A DNA stretch of 47,866 bases from Microscillaceae bacterium (GTDB lineage Bacteria; Bacteroidota; Bacteroidia; Cytophagales; Microscillaceae), in NCBI GenBank assembly GCA_025455045.1, contig JALONJ010000012.1, positions 1-47,866 of the forward strand. Reading direction: 5' to 3'. Below, in pieces: positions 9,998 through 21,668 of this stretch. The notes beneath the pieces are model-generated. The model searched no databases. It saw nothing but the letters and a program-made list of their open reading frames with translations, and was not told the origin of the DNA. The translations under genes were made by a program, and so were the position numbers. The stretch's first letter is position 1. Every line of letters starts with the position of its first letter.

Positions 9998-10654
9998 CTA
10001 ACTATTGGCTTTTTTGTGGTCAGCCAAAAACTTCTCGAGACCAATATCAGTCAAAGGATGTTTGAGCAAAGCCATAATCGCACTCAGAGGGCAAGTAGCC
10101 ACATCAGCCCCTAGTTCGGCACATTTTACAATATGAACCGGATGGCGAATAGATGCTGCCAAAACCTCCGTTTCGAAGCCATAATTGCTATAAATATCCA
10201 CAATTTGTTCTATCAATTGCAAGCCATCAACACTCACATCATCTAAGCGACCGATAAAAGGCGACACATACGAAGCCCCCGCCTTAGCTGCCAACAAAGC
10301 CTGCCCGGGTGAAAATATCAAAGTGCAATTGGTACGAATACCTTTGTCATAAAAATATTTGATGGCTTTAATCCCGTCTTTAATCATTGGAACTTTGACG
10401 ACTATATTGGGGTGAATTTCGGCAAGTTCTTCGCCTTCGCGGACAATATTTTCAAAGTCGGTCGCTATTACTTCGGCACTTACATCGCCATCTACAATTT
10501 CACAAATAGCCCGATAATGCCGAAAAACATTGTCTTTGCCACTAATACCTTCTTTTGCCATCAACGAAGGGTTGGTCGTAACGCCGTCCAACACACCTAA
10601 GTCGTTTGCCTCTCGAATTTCATTCAAATTGGCAGTATCAATAAAAAATTTCAT
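9998..10654 (-). CDS. fsa: Fructose-6-phosphate aldolase / transaldolase-like
   Basis: A 218-residue single-domain (beta/alpha)8 enzyme of the short transaldolase subfamily. Signatures are [13 protein letters not shown] at the N-terminus, [14 protein letters not shown], the Schiff-base lysine strand [26 protein letters not shown] and the SPFIGRLDD block. Family knowledge: members either cleave fructose 6-phosphate reversibly or act as transaldolases in the pentose-phosphate pathway, and sequence alone does not settle which. A candidate -7 box at 10771-10778 would give a leader of about 110 nt with a dispersed palindrome in it. Confidence 0.9.
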
Positions 10655-10778: not shown

Positions 10779-10929
10779 AGCCTTAGCCACGAATAATTGA
10801 TACCTTACTCGATATTGATACCAAAATTTATCACATAAATGCATAAATACTGTTTGTAGGGTTTCTGATCCTATGAGTCAACTCTTTACAGATTTTTTTA
10901 GGAATTATGGTTTTAAAGGGCTCGTAAAT

Positions 10930-11044
10930 AATACTACTATACAAAATATGTATTCACGCAAAGACACTAAGGCACAAAGTACTGATAATCAATAAATTGT
11001 GCCTTAGTGTCTTAGTGGCGAATTAAAAAATGTATAGTAGTATT
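10930..11044. mobile_element. MITE-like element with 9-bp target duplication
   Basis: A 115-bp element with perfect 14-bp inverted ends, AATACTACTATACA (10930-10943) and TGTATAGTAGTATT (11031-11044). It is flanked by a direct duplication CTCGTAAAT (10921-10929 and 11045-11053). An inner perfect 17-bp inverted pair, AAGACACTAAGGCACAA and its complement (10961-10977, 10997-11013), surrounds an exact palindrome core at 10982-10992. No ORF or transposase. A diverged relative lies at 21465-21565. Confidence 0.8.
10974..11000. repeat. Palindrome copy at the centre of the MITE (10982 core)
   Basis: Exact core CTGATAATCAA at 10982-10992, in the loop between the inner inverted arms of the element. 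Confidence 0.75.
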
Positions 11045-11232
11045 CTCGTAAATAACAAGTCGGTCATTTTTTTTAGATAAACTATTGACTGCGTCTCGCC
11101 CTTAGCGGATAATCAGGGCTTTGAATTAGCACATCAGCCCATTTTAAAATTAACACTTGACTTATTCATTTAAAAAAATTCTAGGTGTAGGAATTACTAG
11201 GTAGGTTTCTTTTGTATGCCTTGTTTGGTTAA

Positions 11233-12516
11233 TCAGTTTTTCATCACCAAAATCTTATCAATTCGATTGCCGTCCATATCAATTACTTCTAAGGTATAGC
11301 CCGAGTATTGAAACTTATCGCCCGTTCTGGGAATTTTTTGGAGATGATGCAAAATAAAACCGGCAAGGGTATGAAATTTAATCTCTTCAATTTTTTCGGG
11401 ATATTCCAATTCAAAAAATTTCAAAAATTCATAAAATGGAATAGCCGCATCAATCAACCAAGATTTTTCATCACGTTGGATAATTTCCTGATTTTCTATA
11501 TTTAATCTATTGTCATCTTGTACCAATGCCTCCAAAATATCATTCATTGTTACCAAACCTTGCAATAAGCCGTACTCATCGCGCACACAAGCGTAGTGGA
11601 TTTTGGTCTTTTTGAATTCCTCGAGTAGTTTGTAAACCGACATACTTTCGGGAACAAATAAGATTGGTCGCAGATTTTTGCCAAAAACTCGATTATCTAA
11701 AGCTTCATTGGAGTCAAATACATCTTTTAGGTGAATGATTCCCAGTACATTATCAATATTTTCTTGACAAATGGGGTAGGCACTATGCTTATTTTCCCGA
11801 ATTTTGTTTTGATTGACAATAAAATCATCTTCCAAATTGACCCAAACAATGTCTTTTCGTGGCACCATCAAGGAGATAACCCTAATATCTCCCAAGAAGA
11901 ATACCCTTTCCATTATTTGCTGTTCTACCGGTTGTACTTCGCCCGATTTAGTGCCTTCGTGAATGATGGCTTTGATTTCTTCTTCGGTAATTTTGTCTTC
12001 ATCGGTTTCTTTTACTCCCATCATTTTGAGCAATAAAGTAGTGGAAGCCGACAGTAAAAAAATAAAGGGATATGCCAAGCGTGAAAGCGACTGCATAGCC
12101 ATAGCCGTGCGTTTGGCTATGCCCTCAGCATTGTTTAGCCCCAAGCGTTTGGGAACTAACTCTCCTAATACCAAAGAGAAATAAGTAATGAAAAAAACCA
12201 CCACAAATACTGCCAAAACGTGACTATAAGGCTTGGTAGCAGCAAATTGATTGAAAAAAACCGTAATATCATCGGTGATTTGCGCCCCGCTAAACACCCC
12301 AGTCAAAATCCCAATCAAGGTAATACCGATTTGCACAGTTGATAAAAACTCATTGGGCGAGTCGGCAAGTTTGAGGGCGGTTTGGGCTTTTCTATCCCCT
12401 TTTTCGGCATCACTTTCCAATTTAAAACGCCGCGCCGAAAGAATGGCAATTTCGGACATCGAGAATATACCATTCAAAAGGATTAAACCCAAAATAATTA
12501 AGATTTCGATAAGCAT
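11233..12516 (-). CDS. CNNM/CorC-type hemolysin-family membrane protein
   Basis: A 427-residue protein with the CNNM (DUF21) transmembrane domain in about the first 190 residues (three to four hydrophobic segments; motifs FSMSEIAILSARR, GITLIG, FSLVLGELVPKRLGL). A pair of CBS domains follows (about 205-335; VPRKDIVWVNL, RDEYGLLQGLVTMNDILEAL), and then a C-terminal CorC_HlyC domain. Family knowledge: these are Mg2+ or other cation transporters or efflux regulators; the historical hemolysin label is not a function. Two TAnnTTTG-like boxes at 12576-12595 could serve it. It has no operon partner unless the 33-residue ORF upstream is co-transcribed. Confidence 0.9.
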   Translation of the reverse strand: MLIEILIILGLILLNGIFSMSEIAILSARRFKLESDAEKGDRKAQTALKLADSPNEFLSTVQIGITLIGILTGVFSGAQITDDITVFFNQFAATKPYSHVLAVFVVVFFITYFSLVLGELVPKRLGLNNAEGIAKRTAMAMQSLSRLAYPFIFLLSASTTLLLKMMGVKETDEDKITEEEIKAIIHEGTKSGEVQPVEQQIMERVFFLGDIRVISLMVPRKDIVWVNLEDDFIVNQNKIRENKHSAYPICQENIDNVLGIIHLKDVFDSNEALDNRVFGKNLRPILFVPESMSVYKLLEEFKKTKIHYACVRDEYGLLQGLVTMNDILEALVQDDNRLNIENQEIIQRDEKSWLIDAAIPFYEFLKFFELEYPEKIEEIKFHTLAGFILHHLQKIPRTGDKFQYSGYTLEVIDMDGNRIDKILVMKN

Positions 12517-19480: not shown

Positions 19481-19566
19481 TTCACCACTTTTCAGGAAAA
19501 TTGTAATGCAGGCTGTCTAGCCTGCCCGCGTAAATGAGTTGAGGCTTAGAATAAAGCCAGAATTTC
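19481..19566. repeat. Dispersed repeat A, copy 2
   Basis: Inverted partner of 9781-9868. It reads CACCACTTTTCAGGAAAATT, then a GCAGGCTGTCTAGCCTGC hairpin, then GAGGCTTAGAATAAAGCC. More diverged relatives lie at 30126-30200 and 47736-47760. Confidence 0.75.
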
Positions 19567-19580
19567 AATATTTGAAATAA

Positions 19581-19609
19581 CATAACTAACTGATAATCAA
19601 TTACTTATA
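19581..19609. repeat. Full-length palindrome copy (19590 core)
   Basis: Left arm CATAACTAA, exact core CTGATAATCAA (19590-19600) and right arm TTACTTATA. Confidence 0.85.
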
Positions 19610-21438: not shown

Positions 21439-21464
21439 TAAAGGAACGAGTTAATTGGCTGGAT

Positions 21465-21565
21465 ATACTACTATACAAATTTCAAATTGGCAAATATCAA
21501 TCATTGATAATCAGCATTTTGCGCCTTAGCGTCTTAGCGTGAAAACATATTTTGTATAGCAGTAT
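21465..21565. mobile_element. MITE-like element, diverged relative of 10930-11044
   Basis: Ends ATACTACTATACAAA (21465-21479) and TTTGTATAGCAGTAT (21551-21565) match 14 of 15. One inner arm (GCGCCTTAGCGTCTTAGCG) is kept and the other is lost. A palindrome core TTGATAATCAG (21504-21514) is near the middle. No clear flanking duplication. Confidence 0.7.
21496..21522. repeat. Palindrome copy inside the second MITE (21504 core)
   Basis: Exact core TTGATAATCAG at 21504-21514, in the same relative position as in the first element. Confidence 0.75.
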
Positions 21566-21668
21566 TGTACTTGTTTATAAGCAAAGTTTTAAATGAAATT
21601 CTTATAAGAACAAAAAAAGGGGTCTAATGTTTGGAATTAGGAATTAATAATTATGAATTAGAAGTTAT

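Follow-up and report, generated by a model that had tools for sequence, protein, structure and literature searches.

It has long been asked how transposons can spread in compact bacterial genomes without killing them, and the known answers are insertion at single safe sites, as by Tn7, and insertion into REP hairpins. IS10 and IS50 of the IS4 family, whose transposases belong to the YREK family, generate 9-bp duplications, and an IHF site lies close to one end of IS10. Correia elements, or NEMIS, of Neisseria are bacterial MITEs with an internal IHF site (PMC2229807, PMC10969869). REP palindromes serve as targets for IS1397, IS621, ISPsy8, ISPpu9/10, and ISRm22 (IS4 family); REP-using insertion sequences (ISs) insert inside or next to the REP, and the best-defined class inserts inside it, at a fixed base (PMC1525189). 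Tn7 inserts approximately 25 bp from the TnsD site, with no sequence requirement at the insertion point (PMC2918618), and the targets of the YPAL/RU-2 elements of Yersinia span or adjoin dyad symmetry, with duplications of 3 to 26 bp (PMC2229807). In the open-access literature, we found no description of the palindrome studied here or of a MITE with a fixed offset. To our knowledge, targeting by a distant dyad has not been described for the IS4 family.

The window, by which we mean the whole stretch of 47,866 nucleotides that was analyzed, contains a 115-bp MITE of subtype A-B at positions 10930 to 11044, recognized by its ends, its duplication, and comparison with its family (no strand is assigned to the elements, duplications, or palindromes described here). 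It lies upstream of a transaldolase-like gene (9998 to 10654, minus strand) and is flanked on its other side by a CBS-domain gene (11233 to 12516, minus strand), both named from their translations; no open reading frame of 60 or more amino acids overlaps it. The terminal inverted repeats, AATACTACTATACA on the plus strand (10930 to 10943) and TGTATAGTAGTATT on the minus strand (11031 to 11044), are complementary at 14 of 14 positions, and the target-site duplication CTCGTAAAT is found at 10921 to 10929 and at 11045 to 11053, in keeping with the family rule of 9 bp. The inner stem is formed by 26-bp arms at 10961 to 10986 (plus strand; a type A arm with RCRCWAAG-like 8-bp units) and 10988 to 11013 (minus strand; a type B arm), which are 88% complementary and pair over 17 uninterrupted bp in the fold. 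Folded as a single DNA strand, the element reached a z score of −9.95, a value that none of 200 shuffles equaled. The central 25-bp palindromic site, CAA-AGTA-CTGATAATCAA-TAAA-TTG (10975 to 10999), fits the genome-wide motif, and its dyad center at 10987, the middle base of the core TGATAATCA (10983 to 10991), coincides with the midpoint of the element. The perfect 14-bp inverted ends, 9-bp duplication, 17-bp inner stem, and exactly central palindrome of the original prediction were all borne out; its range of 10921 to 11053 does contain the element, but takes in the duplications as well. A second MITE in the window, of 103 bp and subtype D-A (21464 to 21566), has an intact central site and a duplication that is no longer recognizable.

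The ends of the element recur throughout its genome. In the draft assembly (6.8 Mb in 697 contigs, with a gene content that looks Bacteroidota-like), the 14-mer end had 294 matches with up to two mismatches, compared with 81 for a reversed control, an excess of about 213 ends, and these end counts suggest a total of about 105 elements. A BLAST search with the MITE likewise returned dozens of copies in its own genome, and several contig ends fall inside MITEs. A sample of loci, chosen for carrying element ends, was read and provided 69 distinct paired elements, on which the subtype counts given here are based and among which the common sizes are 103, 113 to 115, and 126 bp. Perfect 9-bp duplications flank 30 of these 69 elements, compared with 0.3% in a mismatched-flank control, and duplications with up to three mismatches flank 47, compared with about 5% when left and right flanks were mispaired. 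Because both the end matches and the perfect duplications so exceed their controls, chance is excluded as the source of the structure in the window. The elements are short and dispersed in many copies, with terminal inverted repeats, target-site duplications (recognizable in most of the paired elements), and no transposase reading frame. Judged by these comparisons, window positions 10930 to 11044 are one copy of a real, recently active non-autonomous MITE family, and the mobilized non-autonomous element of the original prediction is upheld. No MITE copies were found in 36 relatives from other genera of the same family or order, a search of a plasmid collection at the DNA level gave only an incidental weak match, and a scan of genome contigs for close relatives returned only distant Bacilli and Clostridiales. 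Like Correia elements and NEMIS, which measure approximately 100 to 155 bp, these MITEs combine terminal inverted repeats and duplications with an intergenic location and an internal site for an architectural protein, which is IHF in Neisseria and a putative protein here. Unlike them, they have no TA termini, duplicate 9 bp, have modular arms, and carry a site of different sequence that is exactly central. They share 9-bp duplications with IS10 and IS50, but here the site is central in the MITE and no parent with matching ends was found.

The arms vary around a nearly constant center. At least five types of half-element were distinguished, namely, A (CGCAAAGACGCTAAGRCGCAAA), B (CGCCACTAAGACACTAAGGCACAA), C (ACCACCAAGACACAAAGTCTCTAAG), E (AACCACTAAGAAGCTAAAGAAACTAAG), and a short D (ATTTCAAATCGATAAATATAAATCAT); types A, B, C, and E each consist of three 8-bp units of the RCRCWAAG kind. 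They occur in the combinations A-B, A-C, A-D, A′-E, B-C, and other mixtures, and the joint is nearly always the central palindrome. The full palindrome motif lies at the center of 56 of the 69 paired elements, and of 41 of the 47 with duplications, despite the differing arms; in short-D elements it lies 6 bp off the exact midpoint. A test for lower divergence at the MITE core is partly circular, the copies having been anchored on the core. Among the elements inspected, there were no half-MITEs broken at the palindrome that would point to a palindromic recombination hot spot as the cause of arm shuffling.

A second copy of the palindrome, outside the element, marks most insertion points. Of the 47 duplication-bearing MITEs, 29 have an external palindrome exactly 30 bp from the center of the duplication and 36 have one at 29 to 31 bp; six have one at 16 bp, and no other distance up to 300 bp accounts for more than two. 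Among 19 single-ended elements, which lie outside the paired set, 8 have a site at exactly the same offset. Taken together, these alignments indicate that the family usually inserts at a fixed 30-bp offset from a palindrome. Eleven of the 47 elements, the window copy included, have no site at 29 to 31 bp: the palindrome nearest the window copy (11078 to 11123) is split by an insert of about 21 nucleotides (TAAACTATTGA-CTGCGTCTCGCCCTTAGCGGA-TAATCAGGGCTTTG) and lies farther out than the canonical distance. By sequence comparison, then, the window copy is a member of the family in descent and structure, while its own insertion is not at the canonical offset. The suggestion in the original prediction that the MITE grew around or inserted into the palindrome is thus only partly right, in that insertion usually occurs 30 bp from another copy and not into the palindrome itself. 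In three further loci (L138, L133, and L127), the external palindrome is at index 56 to 58 instead of 34, roughly two helical turns further, a class too small to judge.

This offset separates the family from the described systems. From Correia elements and NEMIS, it further differs in that it inserts at a set distance from a second copy of its site. As with REP-targeting ISs, an abundant extragenic palindrome is the target landmark, but the MITE inserts outside it, 30 bp from its center, leaves it intact, and itself carries the palindrome. For the target step, the closest match in mechanism is Tn7 with TnsD at attTn7, where insertion also takes place at a set distance from a bound site, binding being presumed in our case; unlike Tn7, which has its own target selector and one site per genome, a MITE is here confronted with thousands of sites. 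YPAL/RU-2 is also a small repeat whose targets have dyad symmetry, but it differs from the MITE in its duplications of 3 to 26 bp and internal inverted repeats, and no fixed offset has been reported for it.

We consider it quite probable that this is a trans-mobilized MITE family (approximately 103 to 126 bp, about 100 copies), dependent on a DDE transposase for which the IS4 family is the likeliest source, and that its insertion is usually guided by a protein-bound palindromic landmark. Beneath this model lie the family itself, its 9-bp duplications, its modular arms with a constant center, the genome-wide site without covariation, and the fixed 30-bp offset, all of which are read directly from the sequences compared. 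A DDE transposase, presumably of the IS4 family, would move the MITE in trans, duplicating 9 bp. A homodimeric host protein would occupy the 25-bp palindromes and either contact the transposase complex or deform the flanking DNA, thereby placing the staggered cut some 30 bp, or about three helical turns, from the palindrome dyad. At the center of the MITE, the bound protein may bend the DNA and help to pair the ends. Since the MITE carries the palindrome at its own center, each insertion would add a new copy of the landmark.

Clues to the transposase were sought in the ends. The genome contains five DDE_Tnp_1 genes, one of which is the IS4-family gene L148 (NCBIfam NF033591; E value, 1e-56), and all five were ruled out as the parent because their ends differ from those of the MITE. 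The ends of L148, TACTCTACC, match AATACTACTATACA only if offset by 5 bp, and an apparent left-end match of L148 via AATACTACTTTACA was dropped, as this sequence lies 61 bp inside the IS. No intact autonomous parent with MITE ends was found in the draft assembly, where every exact 14-mer end that was examined belongs to a short element, and no IS4-family element with an intact transposase had ends identical to those of the MITE. IS4-family relatives in seven genomes (G018, G049, G034, G089, G098, G060, and G129) do have 9-bp duplications, so that the duplication length of the MITE fits the IS4 subgroup, and the ends of the multi-copy relatives read TACTSTACCC, TACAGTACTG, or CTAAGTACATG. Read as AATAC plus TACTRTACA, the MITE end is related to these ends but has 5 additional bases. 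Near-matching ends precede decayed or truncated IS4-family genes in two same-family genomes: CATACTACTATACA at L162 (G005), where the other end is AATACTACCTACA and no duplication is recognizable around the decayed IS, and CAGACTACTGTACA at L166 (G002). Of the two features that the original prediction sought in an IS, the 9-bp duplication was therefore found among IS4-family relatives and the shared ends, approximately, on two decayed ones, but no intact parent was found. On the strength of the 9-bp duplications in these relatives and the near-matching ends on the decayed genes, it is reasonably likely that the MITE is or was mobilized by an IS4-family transposase whose own element has ends of the AATACTAC type.

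The transposase itself, and not a host protein, might recognize the palindrome both within the element and beside the target. The presence of the palindrome in the element would fit this explanation, as would the view that the transposases of IS1397 and ISKpn1 are themselves responsible for REP targeting (PMC1525189). In addition, a near-palindrome with a TGATAATGA core is centered approximately 31 bp inward from the right IS end at L148 (L148:2324-2348) and in the 66%-identical L159 of G013. This near-palindrome overlaps the end of the transposase reading frame in both ISs, however, so coding constraint may explain it, and the IS4-family relatives in G018 and G049 have no near-palindrome near their ends. 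Moreover, the core form of the palindrome, AA-N4-YTGATWATCAR-N4-TT, occurs in 7 to 93 copies in genomes of the same family, most of which lack this transposase, and in 0 to 74 copies elsewhere in the order (reversed control, 0 to 1). The palindrome also centers unrelated elements. In G019, from another family of the order, a different inverted-repeat element, whose arms contain GAGNGTGTCCGAAAAGT, has it in the middle. A third element, with arms CCTCCCCAGAGGGGAGG, is centered on it in G007, from another genus of the same family; neither pair of arms resembles the MITE. The idea in the original prediction that the palindrome is internal to several element families is therefore partly right, in that it centers the MITE subtypes and unrelated elements in two other genera. 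The simplest reading of these arrangements is that a shared host factor has been recruited to the middle of several elements, and we regard recognition by the transposase itself as unlikely.

The distribution of the palindrome bears on what the landmark might be. The core form occurs 4,820 times in the genome, compared with 0 for its reversed control, and the extended consensus is TAA-N4-YTGATWATCAR-N4-TTA with AT-rich flanks; within the window, TGATWATCA was observed 37 times against an expected 0.6. Over 395 kb with crude ORF calls, site density was 2.7 per kb in the gaps between ORFs and 0.14 per kb in the ORFs themselves, an approximately 20-fold depletion in the latter. There is about one site per intergenic gap, with similar density in tandem, convergent, and divergent gaps, a pattern that led us to reject a regulon operator as the main reading. 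Counting against the guidance model, only some 2% of the 4,820 sites are contributed by MITEs, so most of the palindromes were not spread by them. A short intergenic palindrome in thousands of copies, lying at the palindromic, well-folding center of a MITE, could also be a REP-type hairpin or RNA structure around which the MITE grew. In a hairpin, the variable positions of the two arms should change together, but across 410 sites the N4 and Y/R positions of the two half-sites vary independently, with no clear covariation. Furthermore, the consensus lacks the GTAG and CGTC tags of the REP superfamilies (PMC3733652), and no Rfam match was found within the window. A hairpin origin is thus very unlikely, and the absence of covariation makes the palindrome look like the binding site of a dimeric protein.

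AT-rich tracts flank the palindromes, and a MITE that merely prefers AT-rich or bent intergenic DNA, where palindromes are common, might be expected to land near them. This is highly improbable given that 29 of 47 elements share the same offset to the base pair while AT-rich control positions at the same loci have a site at 29 to 31 bp in 2.6% of cases, and it can be considered refuted unless the palindrome itself sets the bending. The offset is also not confined to one repeated context. Among non-redundant flanks, defined by less than 60% identity over 70 bp, 25 have the canonical offset compared with 0.5 expected (Poisson P value, 1.5e-33), and the 13 bases separating the duplication from the external site are not conserved. 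The 16-bp class is accounted for by pairs of palindromes 46 bp apart (16 plus 30). One of these pairs, TAAGTAATTGATTATCAGCTAGTTATGCTATTTTAAATATTTCTTGTAACTAACTGATTATCAAGCACTTA, recurs as a repeat, with both empty and filled copies in the genome. In filled copies, the MITE sits 30 bp from one site or the other, at positions that mirror each other; L130, L140, and L001 are filled at the second position as judged by eye. It is scarcely credible that the constant spacing merely reflects the copying of a larger repeat containing both palindrome and MITE, since, even though some loci do share the paired-palindrome repeat with several MITEs in it, this repeat has been entered at both positions and is also found empty, the offset persists in the non-redundant flanks with their unconserved spacers, and the 9-bp duplications differ from locus to locus.

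Returning to guidance by a protein-bound landmark, a broader form of the model can be offered tentatively. The palindromes may mark almost all intergenic gaps as sites for an abundant DNA-organizing protein, with the transposon using the mark as a ruler, inserting at 30 bp and carrying the mark at its own center; we hold this to be possible, somewhat short of probable. If true, it would give bacteria a genome-wide safe-harbor strategy that can be compared with targeting by chromatin-bound factors in eukaryotes, with genes spared from insertion and each new copy providing another landing pad. The palindromes at the centers of unrelated elements in other genera would then mean that the partnership evolved several times in the order. 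It would also make an unexplained palindrome of 4,820 copies experimentally approachable.

Several further arrangements of the palindrome and the MITE were observed. The paired-palindrome repeat, with its sites 46 bp apart and a semi-conserved linker (AGTTATGYTATTTTAAATATTTYTTGTAAC), is present in many copies, either empty or MITE filled; examples are L110:1952, L125:3637, and L116:7597, and a partial copy lies at about 19560 to 19600 of the window (minus strand). Another repeat, GGTGCATTTCAAATTTACTACCTATCACCCTCTCCTTCGGAGAGGG, is inserted in or near MITE ends at L107, L067, and L118. Several percent of the palindromes in the sampled loci have an insert of about 20 nucleotides, of the form CYGYGTCYGCCTYTGG, near their center, often with YTGA repeated. 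In addition to the window palindrome at 11078 to 11123, this type of insert is found at L107, L108, L110, L111, L120, L121, L132, L145, and other loci; in some cases (L131 and L145) it is symmetric in both half-sites, and at L121 and L132 it lies within MITE centers. Finally, at positions 118,700 to 122,200 of G033:C1 (L217, L221, L225, and L229), units of approximately 132 to 143 bp are arranged in tandem, each with the same palindrome.
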